Assembly (NCBI RefSeq): GCF_010730355.1 | Contig: NZ_AP022576.1 | Coordinates: 1,550,001-1,614,000, forward strand | Direction: 5' to 3' | DNA: 64,000 nt | Origin: Mycobacterium florentinum | Lineage (GTDB): Bacteria > Actinomycetota > Actinomycetes > Mycobacteriales > Mycobacteriaceae | Shown: in pieces, positions 6,446 through 23,586 of the stretch | Position numbering within the stretch: position 1 is the first letter of the stretch | Layout of the letters: each line of letters starts with the position of its first letter | Notes under the pieces: generated by a model | Told to the model about the DNA's origin: nothing | The model's database searches: none | Seen by the model: the letters and a program-made list of their open reading frames with translations, nothing else | Made by a program: the position numbers and the translations under genes

Positions 6446-7476
6446 GCAGGTTCCTTGGCTGCCCCCGTGGTGAGTACCACCCGGAAGCGGGCCTGGTTGG
6501 CCAGCATTCTCTGATAGCCATCGGCGGCCTTCTCCAATGGCAGGACCTCCACCATCGGCCTAATACCTTGCAGTGCAGCGAAATTGAGAGCGTCCTCGAG
6601 GTCGTTCGCGTCGCCGACCGGGTGGCCGCGCACCATGCCCGAGATATTGATCAGCTGCACCGGAGTGACCTGCACCGGGTCGGCCAAGAGTGCCAGCATC
6701 AGCAGTTCACCGTGCAGTCCCAGTCCGCCGATCGTGGCGGAGATCGCCTCGGCATTGGTGGCGGTGGCCGCGATGACCCGGGCCCCACCCAGGCTCTGCA
6801 GTTCGCCGGCCACATCGCTGGTCAGCGAGTCGATGCAGTAGTGAGCGCCCAGTTCGCGGGCGAGGTGACTTTTCTCGGCGCCGCGCGCGATCGCGACGGT
6901 GCGAAAACCCATTTTGACCGCGAACTGAATCCCGAGATGGCCAAGGCCACCAATCCCGAGGATGGCGACCAGATCGCCGGGCCCAGCGCCGGTGCGGCGC
7001 AACGAATTAAACATGGTCAGTCCCGCGCATGCGAGCGGCGCGGCCTCAACGGCCGATAGTTCATCGGGAATACGGGCCAGGGCGTTCGCCGGCGCCACGA
7101 CGTATTCGGCGAATCCGCCGGGAAACGTTGCGCCGGTAACCATACCGGCCTCGCAATGCACCAAGTCGCCGCGCCGGCAGCTGCGGCACTGCTCGCAATA
7201 GCCGCCCGACGCCCCGATCGCCACCCGTTCACCCTCGCGCCAACCCCCCACACCCTCGCCGAGCGCGTCGATGTGCCCGGCGATCTCGTGACCCGGCGTG
7301 AGCGGGAACTGCAGACCCGGCCACTGGCCGTCGACGAAGTTCGCATCGGAGTGGCAGATGCCACACGCTTCCACCGCGACCCGCACGGTGCCGGGTGCGG
7401 GATCGGTCAGAGTTCGATCGACAAGGGCCAGTTGTCCTTGCGGTGAGCTGACTTGCGCCGCGCGAAACGTTGTCAT
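6442..7476 (-). CDS. zinc-dependent alcohol dehydrogenase (MDR family)
   Basis: A 344-residue medium-chain alcohol dehydrogenase. Catalytic zinc ligands are visible in ACGICHSD (Cys ~37) and TPGHEIAGH (His-Glu ~60); the structural zinc site is CEQCRSCRRGDLVHC with the expected spacing. The NAD(P) Rossmann motif is ILGIGGLGHLGIQ near residue 170. The length is normal for bacterial class I-like ADH. It is first in a two-gene operon with the thioesterase and would oxidise or reduce alcohols/aldehydes in the cytoplasm; substrate unknown. Confidence 0.88.
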   Translation of the reverse strand: MTTFRAAQVSSPQGQLALVDRTLTDPAPGTVRVAVEACGICHSDANFVDGQWPGLQFPLTPGHEIAGHIDALGEGVGGWREGERVAIGASGGYCEQCRSCRRGDLVHCEAGMVTGATFPGGFAEYVVAPANALARIPDELSAVEAAPLACAGLTMFNSLRRTGAGPGDLVAILGIGGLGHLGIQFAVKMGFRTVAIARGAEKSHLARELGAHYCIDSLTSDVAGELQSLGGARVIAATATNAEAISATIGGLGLHGELLMLALLADPVQVTPVQLINISGMVRGHPVGDANDLEDALNFAALQGIRPMVEVLPLEKAADGYQRMLANQARFRVVLTTGAAKEPA

Positions 7477-7669
7477 GATGCGCCTTTCCGACTCTTCCTT
7501 TGCCGCAACGTCTGCCTACGAGTCTTTGGCAGTCCGCGACGTGTGTCCAAGACCTAATCGGCACCGCGCGATACCGAAACGACATGGGCCGAGGCGGCCG
7601 AACACGCGAACACGCCACGGCCGCCATGACGGATACTCGAATCTGCTTGGGGCATCAACGATGCCGTGT

Positions 7670-7857
7670 CGCCCGGCCTTCGCCGGCGACATCACCAGCT
7701 CGCGCACGCATTGGGGCACACGCGGATTGCGCTACATCAATGCCGGCTACACCGTCACCGCGAGCCGCTTACCCGACGGCGAATTCATCGGATTGGTCGC
7801 CCAAAGCCACTACGGCGCGACAGGCCCGCCGATGCGTTCAAACCGGCCGATACCTAG
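7670..7857 (+). pseudogene. thioesterase 3'-end remnant, direct copy of 464-726
   Basis: Bases 7670-7830 read FAGDITSSRTHWGTRGLRY then TVTASRLPDGEFIGL in frame 2, almost identical to the C-terminal part of the thioesterase at 464-612. About 80 bases are then missing and the copy resumes in another frame with PADAFKP and the stop TAG at 7855-7857, matching 693-726. The N-terminal two-thirds of the gene are absent. The two copies are in the same orientation and bracket a ~7 kb block. Confidence 0.8.
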
Positions 7858-7960
7858 TCCATCGGCGGCGCAGCGAGTGGGCCATCACCGTTCGTATGGT
7901 CCCGTCCGCCCGTCGGTCTGCTCGACCCTCGAAATCTCGCACTACATGCGGTGTTTGGGC

Positions 7961-7966
7961 TATGCT
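7961..7966 (+). promoter_or_regulatory. candidate -10 element (TATGCT) for the cyclase operon
   Basis: TATGCT, fitting the mycobacterial TANNNT consensus and preceded by GGGC, lies ~95 bases before the leader ORF. No convincing -35 hexamer is present, which is common in mycobacteria. Confidence 0.25.
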
Positions 7967-8059
7967 GACCCTCCACAAGCCGTAGAGCGGATCTGCGCAG
8001 TCCCGCAGCGAGGGGACCGTCACTGCGGTGGGTGGACATTTCCCTTGGAGGGGAGTGCC

Positions 8060-8137
8060 GTGTACATGCGCCTCAGCCTGCCATTCTCCAGCGTCGCCGT
8101 GGAGACGACGCCCAAGACGGTGTGCCCTGCGCCGTGA
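8060..8137 (+). CDS. possible 25-residue leader peptide
   Basis: A GTG (8060; ATG alternative at 8066) follows a strong GGAGGGGAG Shine-Dalgarno at 8047-8055. The frame encodes 25 residues (VYMRLSLPFSS... ending CPAP) and its TGA at 8135-8137 overlaps the GTG at 8134 that is my preferred start for the large cyclase gene, which has no Shine-Dalgarno of its own. This is the usual geometry for translational coupling. No family match is possible at this length; the alternative is that translation of the large gene starts at the GTG at 8032 and that this frame is unused. Confidence 0.35.
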   Translation: MYMRLSLPFSSVAVETTPKTVCPAP

Positions 8138-11100
8138 CGACGCCACTGCTCGACATCGACGGCCGGGTGGTCGACCGACGGCAGGAGCTCACCGAACTCC
8201 GAACCGCGGTAGAAACGGCCGGACGGGTCAGCGGAGGATGCGTCCTGCTCAGCGGCGCTCCCGGAGTGGGCAAGTCGACGCTCACGCAGGCCTTCGGCGT
8301 CGAGGTCTCCGGCCGCAACTGCGTCTTCGCCTACGGCAGGTGCCGAGACGGTGCGCCGGCGCCGTACTCGGCCCTGGCGGACGCACTGAGCTCGGTGGTC
8401 CGGACCATGGAGGTCACCGGCCCGGCCGAGCGCGATGGTTGGCGTGCCGACCTGGTCAACGTGATGTCCGGGTTTACCGGCGTTCTCTCCGAACTCGTAC
8501 CCGAACTGGCGCCGGTGCTGGGCGAATCGTCGGACGACGCCGACCTGGATGCCGCGGATGCGCGCCGTCGCCTGCACCGTGCCGCCATCCGGCTGGTGTC
8601 GACCACGGCGTCCTACCGCCCGGTGGTGCTGGCGCTCGATGACCTGCAGTGGGCCGACCGCGACACGCTGCTGCTGTTGTCCGAACTGTTGACGGTGTCG
8701 CCGCGCAACGTGTTGGTCGTCGGTGCGCACCGCACGGGTGAGTTCGACCCGAGCGCCGCGGGCTTCAAATCGGAAAGCCTCAACACCATCGAGCTGAAAC
8801 CGCTGGCTCCCGAAGATGTCGAGGAGCTGCTCGCCGCCGTGTGCGGCCAGAGTGTGGAGCTGGGCGACGTGGCCGCCGAATTCCACCATCGGACCGGCGG
8901 CAACCCGCTGCAGGTCCGCCAGCTGCTGTACCGCGCGCAACGCGAAGGCGCGCTGGTCCCGGTCGGCCCCGGCGGCCACCCGAGCTGGGATCTGCGGGTG
9001 CTGATGTCGATCGAGGTCTCGGCCACGGCCGCCGAGTTCCTCGGCCGCTATCTCGAGCAACTTCGCCCCGCCGACCGGGAGGTGTTGAGTTCGCTGTCGT
9101 GCATCGGCGGCGAGTTCGACCTCGACGACGCCACGGCAGCGGCCGCGCTCTCGCCCGACGTCGTGGCGCATACGCTCTGGGCGTGCCTCGAGCTTCGCTT
9201 GCTCGAGGCACTCGACGGCGGCGGCCAGCGGATCACCAACGCGATCAGCCGCGACGCCCGCTACCGGTTCAGCCATGACCGCGTGGCCGAGGCGGCACGC
9301 GCGGGGCTGTCCGTCGACGAGATGCGCGCCATTCACCTGCGCATCGGCCGGCGGCTGGTCGCGCTTGGGGACGATCGGGTGTTCGAAGCCGCGCGCCACG
9401 TCGGCATCGGTGGCCTGGGGCTGGCCGACGACGTCGAACGCACCCAGTTCGTCGAGGCGGTAAGGCGGGCGGCACGAAAGGCCCGGGCGCAGGCGTCGTT
9501 CCCGTTGGCCCTCGGGTACTGCCGGAGCGCGCTGGACCTGCTCGGCGAGCAGCGTTGGGCTTCGCACTTCGAGCTGACCCGGGAGCTGCAGCTCGACGCC
9601 GCCGACGCCGCGCTGCTGGTCGGTGACGTGCCGGCGCTCAATGCGCTACTCGACGAGGCCGAGGAGCATCTGCACGAACCTGCGGACCGCGCCCGGCTCG
9701 CCTACCTCCGGCTCAAGGGGCGGGTAGCGGAGAACCGTCTCCAAGAGGCACTCGAGATCGGGCTGCAAGCGCTCGACGAGTTGGGCGAAAGGGTGGCGGG
9801 CGACGCGGGCAAGCCCCGCATGAACAACGCGATCGTCCGGACGAGATTGACGATGCGCCGCTGGAGCAACGAGCGACTGTTGGGGCTGCCGCACTGCGAC
9901 GACCAGCGGGTGATCGCGCTGCACCGGATTCTCGCCGAGCTCTGCAACCTGTCGGTCCTCATCCGGCCCAACCTCTTGACGTTGCTGGTACGAAAACAAC
10001 TCGATCTCACGTTGGCGCACGGCCACACGCCGTCCTCGCCGCTTGTCGTCACCGGGTACGGAATTGTCCTCGTGCTGCTCGGTGACCACGCGGGCAGCCA
10101 GCGCTTCGGCGAGGTGGGCATGCTGCTGGCAGAGCGCCCGGAGTTCCGGGAGGCCCGGCCGCAGACGGTGTTCATGCACCTGGACTACATCCGTCTCTGG
10201 CGCCACCCGATCCGCGACGGCTTGGGCGAGCTTCGCGATGCCGTCGAGGAAGCTCTCGACCAAGGCGACCAGGAAAACGCCGGATTCCTGGCCGCCGTCC
10301 TGCTCTCCCAGTCGTTCTGGGTCGGTCGCCCGCTCGCTGAGATCGACGCCCTCGCGAGCTCGCTGATCCCCCAAATCCGATCCCAGCCCGTGCCCAGCGC
10401 GCTTTGCCAGGCGATGCAGCAGCTCTGCCTCAACCTGATGGGCCGCAGCGCCGATCCCTTGCTCTTGGCCGGCGAGAGTGGCTACGACGAGCGAGACGTG
10501 CTGCCGGCGGCCCGCCGCGAGGGCGACGAGGTGGCCCTGGGCGTCGCCGCGGCCATGAAGCAGGGGCTGCACTTCTGGTGCGGCGACTACGTCGGCGCGG
10601 TGGCCGCCACCCTGGAGGCGATCGAGCACCTCGGCGGTCTGGACGGCACCACACCCGCACAACTCGTCTATCTGCTCGGCGCCCTCAGCATGATCCACAC
10701 CGCGCCGCGCGAGCGCTCGACGGCCCGCTTCGTGCACCAGACCCTGGCGTCGCACCGCAAGTGGGCCGCGACCGCACCGGACAACTACGCGGCACCGTAT
10801 GCGCTGATCCAGGGAGCGTGGGCGCACGCACGCGGGCAACACACCAAAGCGGAGCACTACCTTCACCAAGCGATCGAGCTGGCGGAGAAATATCAACTTC
10901 CCATCATCAGTGCGCGCGCCCACGAGCAGGCCGCAGCACTCTACGCCGAGACCGGGCGCACGACGCTGCACGAGCACATGCTGCGGTCGGCGTACCAGCG
11001 CTACCTGAATCTGGGTTTCGCGGTGCGCACGGACTGGCTCGCGCGAGAGCACCCCTGGCTACTGCGACGCGATCTGACGGGTTCGGCCGGAATCGACCCG

Positions 11101-12450
11101 GTCGGCGCGCATCAGCTGCTGCACGCGCTATCGGGGGCGCGGACCCCGGACAGCTTGGCCAACATCATTCTGGGCTCGGTTGCGGACACCACCGGTGCGG
11201 GCCGCGTCCTGTTCCTGACCGGTGAACCGGAGAACCTGTCGGTCCGCGCCATCAACGACCACGGCGACATTTCGATCGTGGACGGGCCGTGGACCGAGGT
11301 GCCCTATGACAGGGATATCGTGCGCCGCGTGGTGGACGGTGGCGCCCCGGTCATCGTTGCCGCCGACGATCAGCCGACTCAGGCATCACGACCGTCCATA
11401 CTCGGCGCCCCAATAGCGGTTCGGGACAAGATAATTGGCGTGATTTATGCCGAGCGGGACGAGCCCGGCCGAAATTTCGGCGCCGACCACGAGCAGGCCG
11501 TCGGCTTCCTGTGCGCCCAGGCCGCCGCGTCCCTGTGGAACTTCCAGCTCGAGGCGCGCCTTCGTGCCGCCGACGAGTACCGACAGTCGCTCATGGACGT
11601 GCAATCGAGATTCGTGCCCAACGAACTGCTGCGCATCCTCGACATCGACGACCTTCGCCGCGTCCGCAGTGGCTACCGGGTCGAACGCGAAATGACAGTT
11701 CTCATCAGCGATATCCGCGGCTATACGACCATCATCGAGGACATGAACGTCGCCGAGGCGGGCAACTTGGCGATGGGCTTTCTACGGGCCGTGGAGCTTC
11801 CGATCATCAGCTACCACGGCATGATCCAAGACGTACGTGGGGACGAGATCGTCGCCGTCTTCGAGTCCGAGGCCGACGCCGTGCGGGCGGGATTGGCGAT
11901 GCTGCGCTCCCTGCAGGAGCACAACCAGGAACGCAAGGCGCTGGGCTCCGAGGAGCTGCGGGTGGGCATCGGCATCAACACCGGCGCGGTAGCGGTGGGA
12001 CTCGTCGGCGGCGTGAACCGCATGGTGCTCACCATCATTGGCGACGCGGTGAACCTGGCGGCGCGCATCGAAAGCACCAACAAGCGCTACGGCTCCGCCG
12101 TGCTCATCTCCGATCGCACGAAGAAACGGCTCGCCGATTCGGAGCAGTTCGACGTCCGTCGCATGGAACGCGTCATGGTGGTCAACCGACGGCGACCGGT
12201 AACGATTTACGAAGTGTACGACGAGGATTCGGCTGCACTTCGCGATGCGAAGCGCGCGGCGCAGCCCGCATTCGACAAGGCCTTCACACTGTTCGACGCG
12301 GGCGATGTCGCCGGCGCGCGCGCCGCCTTCGAACGATGCCGCGAGTTGCTGCCCGACGATCCGGTCGCGCCACTGCATCTGGCGCACTGCGACGCGGTGG
12401 CGCGCGGTGAGATGACCCCTGGTCAAGATGTGGCGCTGCTGAACAAGTAG
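8134..12450 (+). CDS. AAA-ATPase/GAF/class III nucleotide cyclase regulator
   Basis: A 1438-residue multidomain protein. Residues ~10-330 form a STAND-like AAA ATPase (P-loop GAPGVGKST at ~41, Walker B LALDDLQWAD at ~167); a long helical repeat region follows (~400-960, TPR-like); a GAF domain occupies ~990-1150; and a class III cyclase catalytic domain ~1186-1335. The cyclase has both metal aspartates (ISDIRGYT and RGDEIVAVF) and the GDAVNLAARIE transition-state segment, but the substrate-specifying lysine of the usual K-x-x-GD appears as Asp (DVRGD). A last ~70 residues are TPR-like. Start: GTG 8134, coupled to the leader ORF; the frame is also open to a GTG at 8032. Likely a soluble signal sensor making cAMP or another cyclic nucleotide, sited 104 bases before the shell-protein operon. 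Confidence 0.8.
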   Translation: MTTPLLDIDGRVVDRRQELTELRTAVETAGRVSGGCVLLSGAPGVGKSTLTQAFGVEVSGRNCVFAYGRCRDGAPAPYSALADALSSVVRTMEVTGPAERDGWRADLVNVMSGFTGVLSELVPELAPVLGESSDDADLDAADARRRLHRAAIRLVSTTASYRPVVLALDDLQWADRDTLLLLSELLTVSPRNVLVVGAHRTGEFDPSAAGFKSESLNTIELKPLAPEDVEELLAAVCGQSVELGDVAAEFHHRTGGNPLQVRQLLYRAQREGALVPVGPGGHPSWDLRVLMSIEVSATAAEFLGRYLEQLRPADREVLSSLSCIGGEFDLDDATAAAALSPDVVAHTLWACLELRLLEALDGGGQRITNAISRDARYRFSHDRVAEAARAGLSVDEMRAIHLRIGRRLVALGDDRVFEAARHVGIGGLGLADDVERTQFVEAVRRAARKARAQASFPLALGYCRSALDLLGEQRWASHFELTRELQLDAADAALLVGDVPALNALLDEAEEHLHEPADRARLAYLRLKGRVAENRLQEALEIGLQALDELGERVAGDAGKPRMNNAIVRTRLTMRRWSNERLLGLPHCDDQRVIALHRILAELCNLSVLIRPNLLTLLVRKQLDLTLAHGHTPSSPLVVTGYGIVLVLLGDHAGSQRFGEVGMLLAERPEFREARPQTVFMHLDYIRLWRHPIRDGLGELRDAVEEALDQGDQENAGFLAAVLLSQSFWVGRPLAEIDALASSLIPQIRSQPVPSALCQAMQQLCLNLMGRSADPLLLAGESGYDERDVLPAARREGDEVALGVAAAMKQGLHFWCGDYVGAVAATLEAIEHLGGLDGTTPAQLVYLLGALSMIHTAPRERSTARFVHQTLASHRKWAATAPDNYAAPYALIQGAWAHARGQHTKAEHYLHQAIELAEKYQLPIISARAHEQAAALYAETGRTTLHEHMLRSAYQRYLNLGFAVRTDWLAREHPWLLRRDLTGSAGIDPVGAHQLLHALSGARTPDSLANIILGSVADTTGAGRVLFLTGEPENLSVRAINDHGDISIVDGPWTEVPYDRDIVRRVVDGGAPVIVAADDQPTQASRPSILGAPIAVRDKIIGVIYAERDEPGRNFGADHEQAVGFLCAQAAASLWNFQLEARLRAADEYRQSLMDVQSRFVPNELLRILDIDDLRRVRSGYRVEREMTVLISDIRGYTTIIEDMNVAEAGNLAMGFLRAVELPIISYHGMIQDVRGDEIVAVFESEADAVRAGLAMLRSLQEHNQERKALGSEELRVGIGINTGAVAVGLVGGVNRMVLTIIGDAVNLAARIESTNKRYGSAVLISDRTKKRLADSEQFDVRRMERVMVVNRRRPVTIYEVYDEDSAALRDAKRAAQPAFDKAFTLFDAGDVAGARAAFERCRELLPDDPVAPLHLAHCDAVARGEMTPGQDVALLNK

Positions 12451-12554: not shown

Positions 12555-13322
12555 ATGTACCTGAGTGCGGAGCGGTTGGCCCTGGCCAATCAATCGGTCA
12601 AAGAGACGTTCGAGCAGTGCAGCATCGTTTGGCAGGCCATCCCGAACTGGGATACCGGCGACCCCGGCCAGATCCGGGTGGCGGACGGCAAATACAACAC
12701 ACCGGGCTTTCTCAATCTCGGTGTCGAGGAAGAGGAATTCGAAGTAACGCTCGCGCAGGCGAACGGGCCGACCCCCGATTCACTGCTCACCGAAGTGATG
12801 GCGGCGAGCAAGACGCTCGCCAAAAAGGTCGACGACGACATCCTCCCGAAACTCTATGCGGGCGCAGCAACGACTTACCCGACGAAGGCCGGCGCCCAGG
12901 AACTACAAGACACGCTGATCAAGGCCCGAGCGGATGTCGAGGATGCCGGCTGTCGGGCGCCGTCCTGCCTGCTCACCAACACGACTGGGCTCGCCAAACT
13001 CAGCCAACTGGTCAGTGGGGCCTCGATCCTTCCGGTGCTCGTCACCGCGGCGAACTTCAACGCGCTGCACCGATCCACGCAACTTGATCCTCCCGATTCA
13101 GGTCCCCGGATGGTCTTGATCGGGCGACGCCGGCGGATTCCTCAGGGCGCCGCACCCGAGGCGTCGCCCGGTGAAGAGCCGGTGGACGTCGCCGTCAGCC
13201 TCGCACCCAGCCTGGAGATCGACGGCGAAACCGGCACGGGCGCAATCAAGCTGACCGTGCGGATCCGCTACGCATTGAGGATCACGGATGCCACCGGTCT
13301 CGTCGCTATCCACAACCCCTAA
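12555..13322 (+). CDS. putative HK97-fold encapsulin-like shell protein
   Basis: A 255-residue protein from the ATG at 12555 (AGGGAG Shine-Dalgarno 8 bases upstream; GTG at 12546 is an alternative). No enzyme motif is visible. The layout fits an HK97-type capsid/encapsulin subunit: an N-terminal helix, an E-loop-like stretch (NWDTGDPGQIRVADG ... FEVTLAQ), a helix ending in VDDDILPKLYAG, a spine helix (ELQDTLIKARADVEDAG) followed by APSCLLTNTTGLAKL, where encapsulins have GPYTLVINTDRW, and a closing strand pair LAPSLEIDGETG / IKLTVRIRYALRI that lines up with the LSIGYEDRE / VRLFITETFTF end of Thermotoga encapsulin. Size is close to family 1 encapsulins. It overlaps the polyprenyl synthase by 35 bases. 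The fold is inferred by eye and needs structural prediction; it could instead be an unrelated beta-rich protein. Confidence 0.5.
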   Translation: MYLSAERLALANQSVKETFEQCSIVWQAIPNWDTGDPGQIRVADGKYNTPGFLNLGVEEEEFEVTLAQANGPTPDSLLTEVMAASKTLAKKVDDDILPKLYAGAATTYPTKAGAQELQDTLIKARADVEDAGCRAPSCLLTNTTGLAKLSQLVSGASILPVLVTAANFNALHRSTQLDPPDSGPRMVLIGRRRRIPQGAAPEASPGEEPVDVAVSLAPSLEIDGETGTGAIKLTVRIRYALRITDATGLVAIHNP

Positions 13323-14496
13323 GCCACGTCACGGTGGTGTGAGCCCGACGGCGCCCAACCCGCTCGAGGACTATCTGGCGCTGTGCAAGCAAGCCTGCGA
13401 CGGCGAGATCGACCGGCTGTACGGCCCCGGTGAGCGCGGATCCAACGCGCTCTACGACCTGATCCTCGACTACCCGCTGCGCGGCGGGAAAGCGTTGCGG
13501 CCGGCACTGAGCATCGCGACCTGCCTGGGGCTCGGTGGCCACCTCGAGGCAATTCTTCCGACCGCCGCGACGCTGGAGCTCTACCACAACGCGTTTCTCA
13601 TCCACGACGACATCGAGGACGAATCATGGTGGCGGCGTGGCAAACCCACGCTGCACATCGACCACGGCGTGCCGATCGCGGTCAACGTCGGCGACGCCAT
13701 GCTGTCACTCTCGCTACAACCGCTGCTGGACAACGTCGAACGCGTCGGGCTCGGGGCCGCCCTGCGCATCCTGCGGGCCGTCGCCAAGATGACCCGGATG
13801 ACCGTTGACGGCCAGGCGCTGGAGCTCGAGTGGGTCCGGTCCAACACCTGGAAGCTCGACGACGCCGACTACCTCGAGATGGTGGAGCTCAAGACCAGCT
13901 GGTACACGTTCATCACGCCGCTACAGGCCGGCGCGATCGCGGCCGGCGCCGCGCCCGAGCGGATGGCTGCGCTGGAGTCGCTCGGCCGCCACCTCGGCGC
14001 GGCGTTCCAGATCACCGACGACCTGCTGAACTTGCGGGCCGATCCCGAGGAGTACGGCAAGGAGATCGGCGGCGACCTGTGGGAGGGCAAGCGAACCCTG
14101 ATGCTGTTGCACACCCTGCGGTGCGCCGAACCGGACGACCAGGAGCGCGCCGTGGCGATTCTGGCCAAACGCCGCCCGAGCGCGGACGGTGAGCTCGGGC
14201 TGACCGAACTGCTCGATCGGCTGGCCGCCCGAGGCGAACTGTCCCAGACCGGCCGGGCCGAAATCGAGGAACGGCTGCAGGGGCATCATTCTTCGGAATG
14301 TAAGAGCCTCGACGACATTCAGTGGCTCTACGAATTGATGCACCGGGTAGGCTCGCTGCAGCACGCCCGGAATATCGCCGCGGGACACGCTCAGAAGGCG
14401 GGCGCCCTACTCGCCGGTCTCGACTGGTTCCCACGCAGCCGCCACCACGACGTGCTGGCCGACCTGGTGGACTACGTACACGGGCGGACCCGATGA
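13288..14496 (+). CDS. polyprenyl (geranylgeranyl-type) diphosphate synthase
   Basis: A 402-residue trans-isoprenyl diphosphate synthase. The first aspartate-rich motif is HDDIED near residue 110, with the neighbouring RRGKPTLH basic segment, and the second is ITDDLLN near 245, where the last Asp of DDxxD is Asn. GGKALRPAL matches the family's substrate-binding GGKRLRP box. It condenses isopentenyl diphosphate with an allylic diphosphate to give a C15-C20 or longer chain; alanine five residues before HDDIED hints at a product longer than farnesyl, a weak inference. The start is the ATG at 13288 (TGAGG, 7 bases upstream), inside the shell gene; GTG 13339 is possible. The stop overlaps the next start (ATGA). 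Confidence 0.9.
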   Translation: MPPVSSLSTTPKPRHGGVSPTAPNPLEDYLALCKQACDGEIDRLYGPGERGSNALYDLILDYPLRGGKALRPALSIATCLGLGGHLEAILPTAATLELYHNAFLIHDDIEDESWWRRGKPTLHIDHGVPIAVNVGDAMLSLSLQPLLDNVERVGLGAALRILRAVAKMTRMTVDGQALELEWVRSNTWKLDDADYLEMVELKTSWYTFITPLQAGAIAAGAAPERMAALESLGRHLGAAFQITDDLLNLRADPEEYGKEIGGDLWEGKRTLMLLHTLRCAEPDDQERAVAILAKRRPSADGELGLTELLDRLAARGELSQTGRAEIEERLQGHHSSECKSLDDIQWLYELMHRVGSLQHARNIAAGHAQKAGALLAGLDWFPRSRHHDVLADLVDYVHGRTR

Positions 14497-14951
14497 ACCC
14501 CGAGGCCCTGATCGCCATGCTGGCGGAGCTCGAGCGGATCCGCGAGGTCACTCTCGACCTCATCGAGCGGGAGAGCCCGTCGTTGCACCCGGCCCCGCCG
14601 GATGAGGCGTGCGGGACGGAGCGAACCGTGTTCGACCTACTCGTCGGCGCGCGCCGCGCGGTCCTGGGTAACCCCGCGGCCGCCCGAGGCGTGCACGACC
14701 TACTCCTGACCGAAGGCCGCCGCTACGCCAACACCCCGCGCGGGGCGCGGCTGCGCGACGGGCTGATCGCCTCCGAGGCGGTGGAGAACCTGCGACGCGT
14801 CTGGGAAATGGTGAGCCTCAACGTCCTCGGCGGTCCCGCCGCGCCCAACGGGTCCCCCGACGCCTGGGCCGACCTGCTGGCCGACGCTGTCATCGGACAA
14901 GGCCTAGACGATTCCGTCCTGGATCGCTTGCGGCCCGAGGGGTTCGCATGA
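14493..14951 (+). CDS. hypothetical protein of the shell/isoprenoid operon
   Basis: A 152-residue, mostly helical acidic protein I do not recognise. It has no signal peptide, membrane segment or catalytic motif; the N-terminal ~30 residues (EALIAMLAELERIREVTLDL) form a likely amphipathic helix. It overlaps its neighbours on both sides by four bases, so it is made in step with the polyprenyl synthase and the next small protein. It may be an assembly or adaptor protein, purely from context. Confidence 0.8.
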   Translation: MNPEALIAMLAELERIREVTLDLIERESPSLHPAPPDEACGTERTVFDLLVGARRAVLGNPAAARGVHDLLLTEGRRYANTPRGARLRDGLIASEAVENLRRVWEMVSLNVLGGPAAPNGSPDAWADLLADAVIGQGLDDSVLDRLRPEGFA

Positions 14952-15223
14952 CGCTGACCGATCCTCGCGAAGCGCTCGCCGACCAGAGCGATTTCATCGG
15001 CTACCTGGTTGGCCTCGCCGCTCTGGCCCGGGTGGTCCACACCCTGGCCGCCGACAGCAACCGCCGAGTCGAGGCACCCCGCGACGCAGATGACTTCGTG
15101 CACGTCCTGCTCGGACTTGCCAGCCTCGGTGTGGCGATCGAACGCGTCGCGGGTTCGGCTATAGCGCAACAGATTACGGGTGCCGAGCCGCCCACGCCAC
15201 CGGATAGGCGGTGGCTGCGATGA
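14948..15223 (+). CDS. small hypothetical protein of the shell/isoprenoid operon
   Basis: A 91-residue protein of unknown function beginning at an ATGA overlap with the previous gene and ending at an ATGA overlap with the CrtC-like gene. Two hydrophobic-leaning helices (FIGYLVGLAALARVVHTLA and FVHVLLGLASLGVAIERVAG) separated by a charged loop suggest a helical hairpin, either membrane-peripheral or a partner-binding bundle. No family recognised. Its conservation of tight coupling suggests stoichiometric production with the others. Confidence 0.75.
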   Translation: MTLTDPREALADQSDFIGYLVGLAALARVVHTLAADSNRRVEAPRDADDFVHVLLGLASLGVAIERVAGSAIAQQITGAEPPTPPDRRWLR

Positions 15224-16242
15224 GCATGCTGCTGGCCCGCAACGACTTCCTGCGCGCCCCGCTGCTGGCCGCCGCCCGGCCGGCGGATTTCAAGGAATGG
15301 CACCACTTCGTGGTCCAGCGGCCGGGCTTGCGGCTCTTGATCAACTTCAGCATCAACAACGAGGTGTTCGGCGCGAATGCAGTCCGGCTAGCGCCGCGCG
15401 TCATCGTGATCGCTCACGACGAGAACTGGACCGGCGCCATCGAGCGGTTCGACGAGTGCGCCCTGGACGTCTCGGCCGATTTGGGCGAACTGACCATCGG
15501 CGCAAACCGGATGACCGTGTTGCCCGACGGCTACCACGTATCAATCGACCTGCCCGACAAGGGTATTCGGGGCGAAATGCACTTCACCTCGGTGAGCCGG
15601 CCATTCCTGGTGCGCAACGAACCCGCGGGTGAAGGCAGGATCAGCTGGCTTTTCGTTCCGAGGCTGCGCGCGCGGGGATGGCTGCACATCGGCGGCTGGG
15701 AGCACCGCATGGAAGACGACCTCGCCTATCACGACCACAACTGGGGCCGGTTCCGGTGGGGCGACGACTTCGGCTGGACGTGGGGCACCATTTTGCCCAG
15801 CGGACCCGGGGATCCGTGGTCGATGGTGTTCGCGGAGATCACCGACCGCAGCCGGTTGCGCTGTGTGTCCCGCTCCCTCTACGTGTGGCACCACGACGAG
15901 CCCGCCGCGATATTCCGGCACGCGGCGATACAGACGCGCTCGGACGGCAGGCTCGCCCGCCCGGCCGACTGCACCTTGCCGCCCCCGATGCGACTGCTGC
16001 TGGACGGTGAGGTGCCGGGTGTGCCGGAACGGATCGACATCACCGCGACGCGGGCGAGCGACAGCATGCGTGCGGAGTTCCGTTCGCGGTCCTATGCCCG
16101 TCTGGCGCAGCCGAGCGAGGTATACCTCGACCGATCGACGGTGCTCTGCGAAGCAGACGGTACCGTGCACGCAAGCGGCACGATCAAGGGCGAGGACTTC
16201 GACTTCGCCGGCACTGGTGTATTCGAGTTCCTTTATGGTTGA
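15220..16242 (+). CDS. CrtC/AttH-like (carotenoid 1,2-hydratase superfamily) protein
   Basis: A 340-residue protein with the signature of the AttH/hydroxyneurosporene-synthase (CrtC-like) double-lipocalin family: DDLAYHDHNWGRFRWGDDFGWTWG near residues 165-190, where the HDHNWG box is the family hallmark. CrtC adds water across the C1-C2 double bond of carotenoids; other members act on terpenoids or have unknown activity. ATG 15220 overlaps the previous stop; the GTG at 15211 is an alternative. Its place between a prenyl synthase and a desaturase-like flavoprotein supports a role in modifying a polyprenoid, but the substrate is inferred only. Confidence 0.75.
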   Translation: MSMLLARNDFLRAPLLAAARPADFKEWHHFVVQRPGLRLLINFSINNEVFGANAVRLAPRVIVIAHDENWTGAIERFDECALDVSADLGELTIGANRMTVLPDGYHVSIDLPDKGIRGEMHFTSVSRPFLVRNEPAGEGRISWLFVPRLRARGWLHIGGWEHRMEDDLAYHDHNWGRFRWGDDFGWTWGTILPSGPGDPWSMVFAEITDRSRLRCVSRSLYVWHHDEPAAIFRHAAIQTRSDGRLARPADCTLPPPMRLLLDGEVPGVPERIDITATRASDSMRAEFRSRSYARLAQPSEVYLDRSTVLCEADGTVHASGTIKGEDFDFAGTGVFEFLYG

Positions 16243-16639
16243 ACAGATTTCATCGCTGCTGCGGCGCTCTGTCGAGCACCTGGAGGACGAGGTGCCCGAC
16301 AGTTACCGCCGGCTGGTCGCAGAGTTCGGCCCGATGGTGGTCGAACTCGACGTCGACGGCGAGGTGTTTTCGGTTCGCGGCGGCGACCGACTTCAGGTGT
16401 CCGACGGTGCGGCACAGCCGGCCGGTGTCCGGATCGCCACCTCGCGCGTGACCATCCTCGATCTGCTCGACGCCGGGGTTGGGCTTGGCGAGGCCGTGGA
16501 GGCGGGCCGGATATCGGTACGCGGTTCGCTCGACGACGTTCAGCGTGCCCACGACTCGCTGCGAGCATACGTTGACGCCGCGGTCCGGGCGTCCACACAA
16601 CCCGCACTGCTGACCGAACTGCGGGCGGGGACAACATGA
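16235..16639 (+). CDS. SCP2-like (sterol carrier) domain protein
   Basis: A 134-residue protein that overlaps the CrtC-like gene by eight bases. Strands FGPMVVELDVDGEVFSVRGGDRLQV followed by RIATSRVTILDLLDAGVGLGEAVEAGRISVRGSLDD fit the SCP2/alkyl-sulfatase C-terminal sterol-transfer fold, where the DLLDG...A...G.i.V.GD pattern is typical. Such domains bind lipids in a hydrophobic tunnel, so it may shuttle the prenyl product between enzymes of this operon. It ends in an ATGA overlap with the flavoprotein gene. Family call by pattern. Confidence 0.65.
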   Translation: MVEQISSLLRRSVEHLEDEVPDSYRRLVAEFGPMVVELDVDGEVFSVRGGDRLQVSDGAAQPAGVRIATSRVTILDLLDAGVGLGEAVEAGRISVRGSLDDVQRAHDSLRAYVDAAVRASTQPALLTELRAGTT

Positions 16640-19599
16640 CCCAGCCCATCACGACGCCGGCATCCTGCGAACGACGCCCCACGGTAGCGGTGCTCGGGGC
16701 CGGCATCGCCGGGCTGACCGCCGCTCACGAACTCGCCGAACGCGGCTTCGTGGTCACCGTGTACGAGGCACGAGAAGACGAACGCAACGGGCTGGGGGCC
16801 GAGCCGGCAGGGACCTACCCGCCCGTCAAGCTCGGCGGCCTTGCGGCATCACAGTATTCGACGGTGGGCACGCACGACGGGAGCCAAGCCGAGCTGCGTC
16901 CCTTCCCGGGCCGGCGGGGCCGGCCGCGTCCCCCCGAGCGAGCGGTGGCGGGTGAACATGGCTTTCGCTTCTTCCCGGCCTATTACCTACACATCTGGGA
17001 CCTGTTCCAGCGCATCCCGGTCTATCAGCACTTGCAATCGACCGGCTGGACACCAACCTCACGCACGATTTATGACAATGTCCGGCGAGTAATCACCCAG
17101 GGCGCCACTGCGAACGGCGAGCCGTCCCTCGTCTTTCCCCGCGAACTCCCACGCAACCCCGTCGAGTTTCTCGGAATCTTCGGTCAACTCCAGACATTGG
17201 GCTTCACCCCAGGCGACATCTCAACCTTCCAAAACAGGATGCAGCGCTACCTCGTCACCAGTCCCCTGCGCCGCACGCTGGAACTGCAGAACCTGTCCGC
17301 GTACGACTTCTTTGTCGGACACGACCGCAAGACCGGAACCAATCAGTTCTCGTACACGCCGCATTGCGATCTGCTGCTGCGCCAAATGCCAAGGGTCCTG
17401 GTCGCTCTCGACTCGAAATGGGGGGACGCGCGCACCAACATCAGCACCAATCTCCAGCTGTACCTGAGTATGGAACGCCGCGACAACAAGGCCGACGGGG
17501 TGCTCAACGGTCCTACCACCGAGGCGTGGTTCGACCACTGGTACCGCCATCTCGTGGCACTGGGCGTCCGCTTCGTCCGCAACGCGGCGACACGCCTCGA
17601 CCCTCCCGCCTTCGACCGCGCGCTGCCGCCCCATCTGCGACCCCGCGCGCAGATCACGTTGGCCGACGGCACCCGGGTGACCCCGGAGTACACGGTCGTC
17701 GCCGTCGACGCCCCGGTTGCCGAAAACATCACCACCGCGCTGCGCGCGGCGGGCACCGGCGGCACCGTGGCCAGGCTGGACGGTTTCACCACCATCCCTC
17801 CCCCGCCCGACGGTCCCCTGCAGCCCGGTATGACGCGCCCCGAGCGACGCCGCGATCCCTACTCGATGGATGAGCTGGGCCGGGTGCCGTGGGATCGGTT
17901 CCAAACGCTGTGCGGCATCCAGTACTACTTCGACACGGAATTTCAACTGGTCCGCGGACACATGTTGTACGTCGGCACGGAGTGGGGGCTGTCGTCGATC
18001 AACCAGACCGGGTTGTGGGAGAAGCGGCCGGTTCTGGACCGCGACGGCCACGTCTCGGTGCTGTCGGTCGACATCGGGGATTTCAATACTCCTTCCAGTC
18101 ATCTGGTCGACGAGTTCGGCCGGGGCAAGGCGGCCCGCGACTGCACTGCCGACGAAATCGCGGCCGAGGTGTGGCGCCAGATCGTCGCCGCGCTCGCCAG
18201 CAGCGCCGAATCCGTTGAGAGTGAGGTCATGCCGTGGCCCGCGTGGTACGCGCTCGATCGCGGCCTGGTCATGGCCGGCGGACCCGGTCAGGGCCACGGC
18301 CGCGTTGTTCGCAACGAGACACCGTATCTCGTTCCCATCGTGGGAGATTGGGACAATCGACCCGGCAGCGACCCGTGGAACCCGCACGGAACATCCTGGA
18401 CGAGTACACCGAACGAGGACGGGTGGCTCGAAGACCTCGAACAATCGAACGTCTGGCAGGCCCGCCATGGCGGCTATCAGGTGCACAACAATTCGGTAGT
18501 GTTCGCGGGGACCTGGAACAAGACGTTCACTCGGTTGACGTCGATGGAGGCCGCGTGCGAGTCGGGACGCCATGCCGTCAACGCCATTCTCGACCACTAC
18601 ATCTGGGTTGGCTCAGGCGGTTTCGATCGCCGGGACAAGACCACGCCACTGAGCTGGGAGTTCCCCTACGGCTTCCTCGATCAAGGTCTGTCGAGTCCGA
18701 TTCGGATGCCGACGCCGGCCGGTGACTACTGCTACGTGTTCGACATGGAAAACCGCGAGCCGGCCGAGACTCGTCCGCTACGCGTACTCGACTCGAAATA
18801 CTGCCAGCAGTCGCTGCCGCATCCGTTGGACGCGCCGATCCCAGTCAGCGTTCCGCCGTTCCCCAACCCCACACTTGCTGGAGGTCAGCAAATGTCCATG
18901 CCTGCAATGGATTACAACCAGCAGTTGCTAGCCAGTCTCCAGAGTTGGCGACAGCTTCTCGAGCAGTGGACGGCCATGGCGCCCGGGTCGCCATTCCCGA
19001 CCGCGCCGCCCGCGCCAGGGCCGTTCGCGCCCCCCGCGCCGCCGTTCGTGCCGCCCATGCCGTTCACCCCCCCGATGGCTGCGGCGGCGCCGGCGCCACC
19101 CGCGCCGGCTGACTACAGCCAGCAACTGCTCAGCTACCTTCAGGCGTGGCGGCAGTACCTCGAGGAGGCGACGGCCACGGTGCCGGCATCGCAGCGGACA
19201 TCGACCACGGCTACCCCCAAGAACGGCGGTAAAGCCAGTCCTGACCGCGGGCCGGATGTGCTGATACCACCCGGCAACGACGCCGGGAGCAAAGGCATGC
19301 CGCAGAGTGGCGATGGTAAGAAATCGCCACCCAACTGGTCACCGGTCTATCGAGAGCCCAGCACTGATTCCGGGGCGCAATTCGCCCCGACCCGCGTCGA
19401 CCCGGCCGCATCGGCGGCTCGGCCCGAAGCCTCGCGGCCGGTAGCCGAAACGCCCCGCGAGGCGGTGGGTTCGCCCTTCCTCAGCGTGATGAATCGCGTC
19501 GACCCCGCTGCGTCGCCGCAGGTCGCACCGAAATCGCTGTTCTCCCGGCCCGGCAGTTCGGCAGTTCTTCGGGAAGGCAGCGAAACGGGTTCGTCCTGA
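16636..19599 (+). CDS. carotenoid-desaturase-like FAD oxidoreductase with long disordered tail
   Basis: A 987-residue flavoprotein. The N-terminal FAD motif is VLGAGIAGLTAAHELAERG (about residue 20), then VTVYEAR, and a long EHGFRFFPAYYLHIWD box that resembles desaturase-like amine-oxidase-fold enzymes. The catalytic part runs to about residue 740 (FAGTWNKTFTRLTSMEAACESG near 630-650 is the C-terminal FAD-contact region). The last ~235 residues are proline-rich and low-complexity. They carry two near-copies of an amphipathic block, DYNQQLLASLQSWRQLLEQW (18910-18969) and DYSQQLLSYLQAWRQYLEEA (19111-19170), and two RVDPAAS copies near 19398 and 19497. The gene is last in the shell operon and likely oxidises a prenyl chain. 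The tail could be a shell-targeting domain; that is inference. Confidence 0.8.
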   Translation: MTQPITTPASCERRPTVAVLGAGIAGLTAAHELAERGFVVTVYEAREDERNGLGAEPAGTYPPVKLGGLAASQYSTVGTHDGSQAELRPFPGRRGRPRPPERAVAGEHGFRFFPAYYLHIWDLFQRIPVYQHLQSTGWTPTSRTIYDNVRRVITQGATANGEPSLVFPRELPRNPVEFLGIFGQLQTLGFTPGDISTFQNRMQRYLVTSPLRRTLELQNLSAYDFFVGHDRKTGTNQFSYTPHCDLLLRQMPRVLVALDSKWGDARTNISTNLQLYLSMERRDNKADGVLNGPTTEAWFDHWYRHLVALGVRFVRNAATRLDPPAFDRALPPHLRPRAQITLADGTRVTPEYTVVAVDAPVAENITTALRAAGTGGTVARLDGFTTIPPPPDGPLQPGMTRPERRRDPYSMDELGRVPWDRFQTLCGIQYYFDTEFQLVRGHMLYVGTEWGLSSINQTGLWEKRPVLDRDGHVSVLSVDIGDFNTPSSHLVDEFGRGKAARDCTADEIAAEVWRQIVAALASSAESVESEVMPWPAWYALDRGLVMAGGPGQGHGRVVRNETPYLVPIVGDWDNRPGSDPWNPHGTSWTSTPNEDGWLEDLEQSNVWQARHGGYQVHNNSVVFAGTWNKTFTRLTSMEAACESGRHAVNAILDHYIWVGSGGFDRRDKTTPLSWEFPYGFLDQGLSSPIRMPTPAGDYCYVFDMENREPAETRPLRVLDSKYCQQSLPHPLDAPIPVSVPPFPNPTLAGGQQMSMPAMDYNQQLLASLQSWRQLLEQWTAMAPGSPFPTAPPAPGPFAPPAPPFVPPMPFTPPMAAAAPAPPAPADYSQQLLSYLQAWRQYLEEATATVPASQRTSTTATPKNGGKASPDRGPDVLIPPGNDAGSKGMPQSGDGKKSPPNWSPVYREPSTDSGAQFAPTRVDPAASAARPEASRPVAETPREAVGSPFLSVMNRVDPAASPQVAPKSLFSRPGSSAVLREGSETGSS
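18880..18894 (+). promoter_or_regulatory. internal Shine-Dalgarno and ATG inside the flavoprotein gene
   Basis: GGAGG at 18880-18884 stands seven bases before an in-frame ATG at 18892 (MSMPAMDYNQQ), exactly where the disordered repeat tail begins. Initiation here would yield a separate 235-residue tail protein in addition to the full-length enzyme. Confidence 0.4.
18910..19170 (+). repeat. two copies of a ~20-residue amphipathic repeat in the protein tail
   Basis: Copy 1 at 18910-18969 and copy 2 at 19111-19170 share D-Y-x-Q-Q-L-L-x-x-L-Q-x-W-R-Q-x-L-E, with 14 of 20 residues identical, separated by a Pro/Ala-rich linker. The helices are amphipathic with Leu/Trp on one face. Confidence 0.8.
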
Positions 19600-22560: not shown

Positions 22561-23586
22561 TCAGCCTTTCTGGGATGCTGCGGACACTTCGGCGGCGCTG
22601 CCACCGATGCCGTCGGGATAGAACTGCTTGGCCCACTGGCGAATTGCCGTGAACCCTTCGTACTCGTCGGTGGCCAGCGCGGGCGGATCCGAATACCGCT
22701 GGTGCTGCCAGATTTCGATGTCCTGCTCGAACTGCCGGATGACCTCTCGGCCGAACTCCTGTGCCTTGGTCTCGGCGCGGACCGGATCCTTGTGCGGCGC
22801 GCGGCCGATGTAGACCATGAACCGGACGTCGGAGGTGCACTCGTCGACCGGCGTGACCGCGGAGATGGTGCGGTTGTCGATCATGCCCCAACTCTTGGTC
22901 ACCGCGATTCCCAGCCCGCCGTTGACGGCCTCGACGCCGCTGTTCACGTCCTCGATCCGCTGCCCGTCGTCGCCTTCGAACGTGATGGTGAAATCCACGA
23001 AGGACACGGGCTCGGCGAAGTCGTGGCGGGTGAAGACCGGCACGATCGGCGTGTTGTGCACGTATTTGAAGTGCGCGAAGTCCACCCCGTTTTCCAGCAC
23101 GTACTGCGGATGCAGCTCCAGGCCGGCGCGGTACAACCGCTGCTGCGGGTAGTAGCCGTCGGCGCTGCTGCCGTCACCGAATGCGGCGAAAACGTCCGGG
23201 GCTTCGAAGAAAGGCTCGCGACGCTCGACGTCATGCCAGATGTAGACCGACTCGTTGCGCTCCACCACGGGATAGGTGCGCACCCGGCGCCCCCGGTTGG
23301 GGCGGTCCTGATACGGAATGCGCACGTTGCGGCCCTCGTTGCTCCACTGCCAGCCGTGGAACGGGCACTGCAACACCTCGCCGACGACCTTGCCGCCGTA
23401 TCCCAGATGCGCACCCAGGTGTTCGCAATAGGCGTTCATGACGGTGAGCTGGCCGGACTCGGCCCGCCAGGCCACCATTTCCTGGTCGAAGTACTTCATC
23501 TTGTGGACGTCCCCGATGCTGATCTCCTCGGACCAGGCGACCTGGAACCATCCCGTCGGTTTCATCGACAACGGCGGCTTGGCCAT
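22561..23586 (-). CDS. Rieske non-heme iron oxygenase (KshA-like)
   Basis: A 341-residue oxygenase component. The Rieske cluster ligands are CEHLGAHLGYGG and CPFHGWQW (C-x-H, then C-x2-H) near residues 54-78; the mononuclear iron site is VDFAHFKYVHNT with Asp, His, His in the expected places near 170-180. The overall layout resembles steroid 9-alpha-hydroxylase KshA. A GGAGGA Shine-Dalgarno precedes the ATG. It needs a separate ferredoxin-reductase, possibly one encoded elsewhere (a candidate lies at 24888-25964). A divergent TetR gene starts 90 bases away and is the likely regulator. Confidence 0.85.
   Translation of the reverse strand: MAKPPLSMKPTGWFQVAWSEEISIGDVHKMKYFDQEMVAWRAESGQLTVMNAYCEHLGAHLGYGGKVVGEVLQCPFHGWQWSNEGRNVRIPYQDRPNRGRRVRTYPVVERNESVYIWHDVERREPFFEAPDVFAAFGDGSSADGYYPQQRLYRAGLELHPQYVLENGVDFAHFKYVHNTPIVPVFTRHDFAEPVSFVDFTITFEGDDGQRIEDVNSGVEAVNGGLGIAVTKSWGMIDNRTISAVTPVDECTSDVRFMVYIGRAPHKDPVRAETKAQEFGREVIRQFEQDIEIWQHQRYSDPPALATDEYEGFTAIRQWAKQFYPDGIGGSAAEVSAASQKG

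Follow-up and report, generated by a model that had tools for sequence, protein, structure and literature searches.

The window analysed here, 64,000 nucleotides of Mycobacterium florentinum (contig NZ_AP022576.1, positions 1,550,001 to 1,614,000), is part of a 6.22 Mb single-contig genome and carries an operon in which the gene of a predicted shell protein adjoins that of a polyprenyl diphosphate synthase. We regard it as a candidate encapsulin-type compartment for isoprenoid modification. An earlier note, made from the sequence of the window, had placed seven genes at 12555-19599; all of them were found there as open reading frames (ORFs) on the + strand, with neighbours overlapping by 4 to 35 base pairs (bp) depending on the start codon chosen. 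The conserved unit also includes an eighth gene, overlooked in that note, encoding an upstream AAA/GAF/cyclase protein of 1,472 amino acids (aa). The features are as follows.

8032..12450, + strand: AAA_16/GAF/class III cyclase protein, 1472 aa (Pfam AAA_16, GAF, Guanylate_cyc); the true start is maybe somewhat later
12555..13322, + strand: shell protein, 255 aa, with a predicted HK97 fold, Family-1-encapsulin-like
13288..14496, + strand: polyprenyl diphosphate synthase carrying a DDIED motif; 402 aa if started at ATG 13288 (PF00348, E 9.4e-60); alternative start GTG 13339
14493..14951, + strand: u1, helical protein of unknown family, 152 aa, found in exactly the 24 of 198 genus genomes that have the shell
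14948..15223, + strand: u2, 91 aa, with two conserved segments, a variable linker and a fixed C-terminal RWLR (alignment and codons)
15209..15220, + strand: RWLR, candidate targeting peptide at the end of u2 ([R/S][W/F]LR in 24 of 24 genomes)
15211..16242, + strand: CrtC/AttH-like protein; start GTG 15211, or ATG 15220 (4-bp overlap)
16217..16639, + strand: putative SCP2-like lipid carrier (PF02036, E 0.02, below the cut-off); the start could be ATG 16235
16636..19599, + strand: flavin adenine dinucleotide (FAD) oxidoreductase with a desaturase/HpnE-like N-terminal part, 987 aa including the fused tail (PF13450, E 4.2e-8)
18892..19599, + strand: proline-rich tail module containing two helical repeats; fused to the FAD protein here, whereas 10 of 24 genomes have it as a separate ORF
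18910..18966, + strand: tail helical repeat 1 (score above the 99% level of 200 shuffles)
19111..19167, + strand: tail helical repeat 2 (score above the 99% level of 200 shuffles)

The end-to-end overlap of these genes, as first described, holds from the synthase onwards (4 to 26 bp, again start codon-dependent). The shell and synthase genes overlap, by 35 bp, only if the synthase starts at 13288, and in some relatives the script-chosen synthase start lies just past the shell stop. The shell start ATG 12555 is common to the relatives; GTG 12546 is also open.

Genome searches were run with one genome per species. The shell gene was identified in 24 of the 198 genomes of the genus, and u1 in exactly those 24. 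The loci of the other 23 shell-bearing genomes were retrieved for gene-order comparison, and one order, on one strand, is conserved in all 24: AAA/GAF/cyclase, shell, synthase, u1, u2, CrtC/AttH-like, SCP2-like and FAD oxidoreductase, with the AAA_16/GAF/class III cyclase gene directly upstream of the shell and heading the unit. The linkage of the shell to prenyl enzymes, which the earlier note had read from a single locus, is therefore found in every shell-bearing genome of the genus. Two loci are flawed: in L020 the cyclase gene is cut by the contig end, and in L027 the CrtC-like gene is in pieces (9653-10683, broken across more than one frame by decay or sequencing error). Ka/Ks ratios lie between 0.05 and 0.58 over all eight genes in seven close pairs (0.15-0.49 for the shell), which, together with the gene order kept in 24 of 24 loci, is more than chance would produce.

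The shell protein deserves special attention. Its likeness to HK97-fold proteins, first drawn by eye, was upheld by structure prediction and a fold search: the model has an HK97 fold with a predicted local distance difference test score (pLDDT) of 91.6, the 255 aa align over the full length of the fold, and the nearest solved structures are encapsulins, at 13-16% identity in the best rows. Encapsulins fit the model clearly better than phage capsids do; the rows listed in this search include no Family 2A shells. An elongated N-terminal helix (residues 5-22) is predicted where phage capsids have an N-arm, and encapsulin rows mostly align from residue 1 of the model, phage rows from residue 7 or later. 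According to excerpts of PMC8346489, the source of all statements cited to it below, Family 1 encapsulins likewise carry such a long N-terminal helix instead of an N-arm of the phage type.

Among sequence models, the picture was assembled from alignment A2, the 32 shell-family members of which were each scanned singly. PF04454 was the Pfam family matching most of them (3 of 32, best E 0.0019), a single member matched NCBIfam encap_f1 (E 0.067), and major head proteins made up the three commonest PHROG families (matching 8, 5 and 3 of 32, best E 4.2e-4); weak as each is alone, these matches jointly agree with the HK97 fold. No member matched PF05065. The encap_f1 model itself works, since a classical mycobacterial encapsulin reaches 323.6 bits on it. 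Urease beta subunits, the sole PDB matches of a 48-row shell profile (E about 2), were taken as chance. A classical PF04454 encapsulin is encoded elsewhere in the same genome (G000:C1:4409701-4410450), so that a single cell may hold two different HK97 shells.

Of the eight genes, that of the shell is conserved least. Pairwise identity over the 24 genomes averages 0.52 for the shell and 0.53 for u2, against 0.77 for the synthase and 0.76 for the FAD protein (first 700 residues); L025 and L027 share 84% of synthase residues with the window and 48-49% of shell residues. Conservation within the shell is uneven, with low entropy at residues 1-28 (0.81 bits), 135-141 (0.48) and strand 210-225 (0.71) and high entropy in the E-loop (2.1 bits) and loop 103-113 (2.7). 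We infer that this pattern is the one expected of a lumen-facing binding surface, because the N-terminal helix of Family 1 shells is part of the cargo-peptide pocket (PMC8346489).

The same data bear on the possibility that the protein is a domesticated phage capsid, kept for another purpose such as phage interference or an unassembled structural role and co-transcribed with a lipid-modifying operon by happenstance. Phage major capsid proteins in BFVD match the model at E values down to 1.2e-12, a few family members match the phage head families named above, the shell evolves faster than the enzymes, and its evolutionary distances give the lowest correlations with those of some of the other unit genes. 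Against this stand the clearly better fit of encapsulins and the perfect co-occurrence of shell and u1. Moreover, no relative was found in 50,697 phage records, a plasmid collection or viral contigs, and the eight flanking proteins scanned included no phage genes, six belonging to metabolic or regulatory families and two having no match, which also sets the locus apart from a prophage capsid gene. We consider a domesticated capsid of this kind improbable.

The identity of the prenyl-chain enzyme is certain. The polyprenyl diphosphate synthase keeps its DDIED motif in 24 of 24 genomes, and about 12-25 residues precede its conserved start, counted from script-chosen starts. On the cargo model NF041169 it scores 178.9 bits, the cut-off being 450, below IdsA_Meth at 189.1. 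Two other polyprenyl synthases are encoded in the same genome. The remaining names given in the earlier note were confirmed in part. The CrtC/AttH-like protein has no meaningful Pfam match and none in a PDB profile search, but a few of its listed homologs carry the source names 'AttH domain-containing protein' or 'Hydroxyneurosporene synthase'. The SCP2-like ORF is present in all 24 loci, its name resting on a Pfam match below threshold. The last gene, called desaturase-like, encodes an FAD/NAD(P) Rossmann enzyme; its match to NCBIfam HpnE (E 5.2e-8) is far below the cut-off and covers 31 residues only.

Among the two small proteins, u1 gave a model of low confidence (pLDDT 55) and a single match in a profile search against the PDB (E 1.4). 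Protein u2 is more telling by its end, which reads RWLR in 19 of the 24 genomes, RFLR in four and SWLR in one. The codons vary (CGG, AGG or CGA for the first arginine, AGC for the one serine, and CTG, CTC, CTA or TTG for leucine); the end peptide itself is therefore conserved, not merely the overlap with the next gene. Among the best 120 of 674 u2 homologs, 119 end in RWLR and one in LWLR, and over 144 sequences (these 120 plus the copies from the 24 genomes) entropy is 0.08 bits in the last four columns against 1.96 in the linker. The count over 24 genomes is the fairer one, because the 120 homologs are the best-scoring and were found with a profile containing the motif. In the 19 genomes to which the pattern could be applied, the linker is 17-24 residues long. 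The last residues of the synthase and u1 are also conserved, but there they directly continue conserved sequence.

Known Family 1 tags, as described in an excerpt of PMC7925596, bind through hydrophobic contacts and through ionic ones (arginine or lysine), and hang on a flexible linker of 10-20 residues. In sequence, the end of u2 resembles such a targeting peptide in being a short C-terminal motif after a variable, presumably flexible linker, and differs in its letters from the GSL-type tags of that source. We regard RWLR as a candidate targeting peptide and u2 as its putative bearer.

A further feature, missed in the earlier note, is the separable disordered tail of the FAD protein (residues 753-987), which is proline-rich and contains two helix-like repeats of about 19 residues. 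It is fused to the enzyme in 14 of 24 genomes and forms a separate, directly downstream ORF in the other 10 (L018, L019, L021, L022, L024, L026, L077, L079, L082 and L083); in L018, L019 and L022 the stop of the FAD gene and the new tail start lie in the same frame, a few bases apart. Both repeats score above the shuffled 99% level in 23 of 24 genomes, the exception, L082, having a run of unknown letters. Two other tail motifs were set aside: a recurrent PP...GSQ-like one was irregular, and SL[FY] near the tail end, present in 18 of 24 genomes, was too loose for a claim. Found either fused or separate, and combining repeats with disorder, the tail is a natural candidate for tethering enzymes.

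The tail and u2 could also mean that the shell assembles with only u2 or the tail protein as cargo while the enzymes stay outside, on its surface or at a membrane, so that the particle would be a scaffold or lipid carrier and not a reaction chamber. Protein u2 has the only clear tag-like end, the tail is a protein of its own in 10 of 24 genomes, and the SCP2-like protein (E 0.02) suggests lipid handling. The fusion in the other 14 genomes, however, ties at least the FAD enzyme to the tail, and the strict linkage of eight genes also speaks against enzymes left outside. This arrangement seems to us unlikely, if less so than the domesticated capsid.

We put at roughly 0.6 the probability that the operon specifies a compartment of the encapsulin type in which isoprenoids are modified and whose shell is Family-1-like. 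In such a compartment, the 255-aa protein, by its predicted HK97 fold, would assemble into the shell. Judging from the families, the synthase would supply a prenyl diphosphate chain, which the FAD enzyme and the CrtC/AttH-like protein would alter by hydration, desaturation or in some other way; transport of the hydrophobic product would fall to the SCP2-like protein. Loading would be by short motifs, with RWLR at the C-terminus of u2 acting on its flexible linker as in Family 1 cargo, and the proline-rich repeat tail may tether or gather the enzymes. For the upstream AAA/GAF/cyclase protein, a sensing or signalling role in the system is probable. The proposal that a shell holds a prenyl pathway is coherent, and it has gained a candidate loading motif.

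Several observations weigh against this compartment. The window shell by itself has no match in Pfam, NCBIfam, PHROG or PDB sequences. Local profile-profile comparison of the shell with 30 Family 1 sequences gave a probability of 0.1; as both alignments are narrow (Neff about 2.5-2.7), this failure is weak evidence. Unrelated families match A2 members about as weakly as the capsid families do, namely AlphaC_N2 (E 0.0039, two members) and FtsK (E 0.00085, one member). Neither a phytoene or squalene synthase nor a terpene cyclase was found in the unit by Pfam; the pathway is therefore incomplete on paper and its product not nameable. Finally, RWLR sits on the small protein u2 and not on an enzyme, and neither the synthase nor the CrtC-like protein has an obvious tag of its own.

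A more specific version of the compartment can be advanced tentatively, at somewhat less than even odds. It would be a separate, Mycobacterium-restricted encapsulin family in which a Family-1-like capsid was recruited for isoprenoids independently of Family 2B, with the small dedicated adaptor u2 (RWLR end) and a separable, multivalent disordered scaffold bringing in the several enzymes of a hydrophobic pathway, controlled by a cyclase/ATPase sensor. If this is true, capsids were recruited for terpenoid chemistry more than once, here through a Family-1-like shell fixed in an isoprenoid operon. The system would be an encapsulin that natively houses several enzymes, possibly loaded by way of an adaptor and a scaffold, would provide a new short tag for bioengineering, and would equip a genus defined by its lipids with a lipid-related organelle.

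The restriction to the genus was followed at several levels. Among the best 120 of 526 shell homologs, the named ones are from Mycobacterium or Mycolicibacterium, except one cluster labelled as a Solirubrobacteraceae metagenome-assembled genome. In 396 genomes of the phylum, with few candidates per genome scored for the shell and u1 (6 and 9), nothing convincing was found outside the genus, the shell occurring in six genus members and u1 in the same six. In 246 genomes of the class, the FAD enzyme was found at E<=1e-20 in six genus members with nothing convincing outside the genus, and the CrtC-like protein in those same six, together with two weak matches. Weak matches in other actinobacterial families (a partial one to the shell in G459, L117, E 5.7e-4; one to u1 in G484, L124, E 1.6e-4; and one to the shell, with one stop, in G095, L017, E 8.3e-4) are possibly chance. 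Named shell homologs occur in M. colombiense and M. simiae, and the CrtC-like homolog cluster P0240 is named Mycobacterium avium subsp. paratuberculosis; the system is therefore not confined to environmental species.

In eight of the 24 loci the unit is flanked by the same downstream neighbours (dapB side), which were not found in the remaining 16 retrieved stretches; thus the eight-gene unit probably sits at more than one site. Its patchy presence, together with the several sites, suggests that it has moved or been lost repeatedly within the genus. As part of the best explanation, we favour a genus-restricted unit inherited or lost as a block within Mycobacterium. Just past dapB, the window encodes at 22561-23586 a Rieske oxygenase whose C-terminal domain is of KshA type (3-ketosteroid 9alpha-hydroxylase family). 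Upstream of the unit, a stretch of the ORF 7298-8137 (about 7670-7860) is, by eye, nearly identical to part of the 23-727 product and looks like a small partial duplication.

Among the matches listed, no description of the operon was found in open-licence PubMed Central papers. The mevalonate operon of M. marinum (PMC12632256) was dropped, as its gene set is different and the word encapsulin does not occur in the excerpt consulted. A metagenomic structure search for encapsulins (Kashif-Khan et al., as described in an excerpt of PMC12136054) might contain relatives.

Compared with known systems, the window shell is unlike Family 4, whose members consist of the A-domain only (about 100 residues), in its 255 aa and full-length HK97 alignment. 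It also differs from Family 3, which has PF05065 shells in peptide natural-product clusters, as none of the 32 shell-family members matched PF05065 and no peptide-biosynthesis family was detected by Pfam in the eight genes. The Streptomyces lydicus two-component shell type (9bje), taken as an example of Family 2B, is itself a xylulose kinase system.

Encapsulins beside prenyl or terpene enzymes, which the earlier note mentioned, do exist, but in PMC8346489 they are Family 2B, and the window shell is not of that type. Prenyl/terpene cargos belong to Family 2B, which differs structurally from Family 1 and the shells of which have a cNMP domain in the E-loop (PMC8346489; also an excerpt of PMC12407261); its operons often contain polyprenyl transferases and are found almost entirely in Actinobacteria, and its prenyl cargo has a disordered N-terminus of 50-100 residues (PMC8346489). 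The window resembles this arrangement in that an HK97 shell gene adjoins a polyprenyl synthase in Actinobacteria. However, the predicted model of the 255-aa shell has no cNMP domain inserted in the E-loop, and no Pfam match, and the region before the conserved part of the synthase has about 12-25 residues, not 50-100. A highly reduced Family 2B prenyl encapsulin, its cNMP domain lost and its cyclic nucleotide signalling moved to the neighbouring cyclase, would accommodate the polyprenyl genes, the actinobacterial setting and the cyclase next door; given the missing marks of both shell and cargo, we hold it to be very improbable. A cyclase gene beside a cNMP-less shell is a curious parallel to the cNMP domain of Family 2B shells (PMC8346489).

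Among the closest known systems are those of Family 1 (Myxococcus xanthus EncA, 8vjo; Dendrosporobacter quercicolus, 9i8e; Quasibacillus thermotolerans, 6nj8). The cargos of this family are DyP, ferritin-like proteins and few others, with 90 operons unassigned (PMC8346489), and by Pfam the known ones were not found in the operon studied here. The window shell shares with Family 1 the predicted HK97 fold and elongated N-terminal helix, but has no PF04454 or encap_f1 match and only 13-16% identity in the best rows. With the fold and N-terminus of Family 1, without its sequence or cargo and without the marks of Family 2B, it is therefore filed in neither family, and it probably works like an encapsulin.

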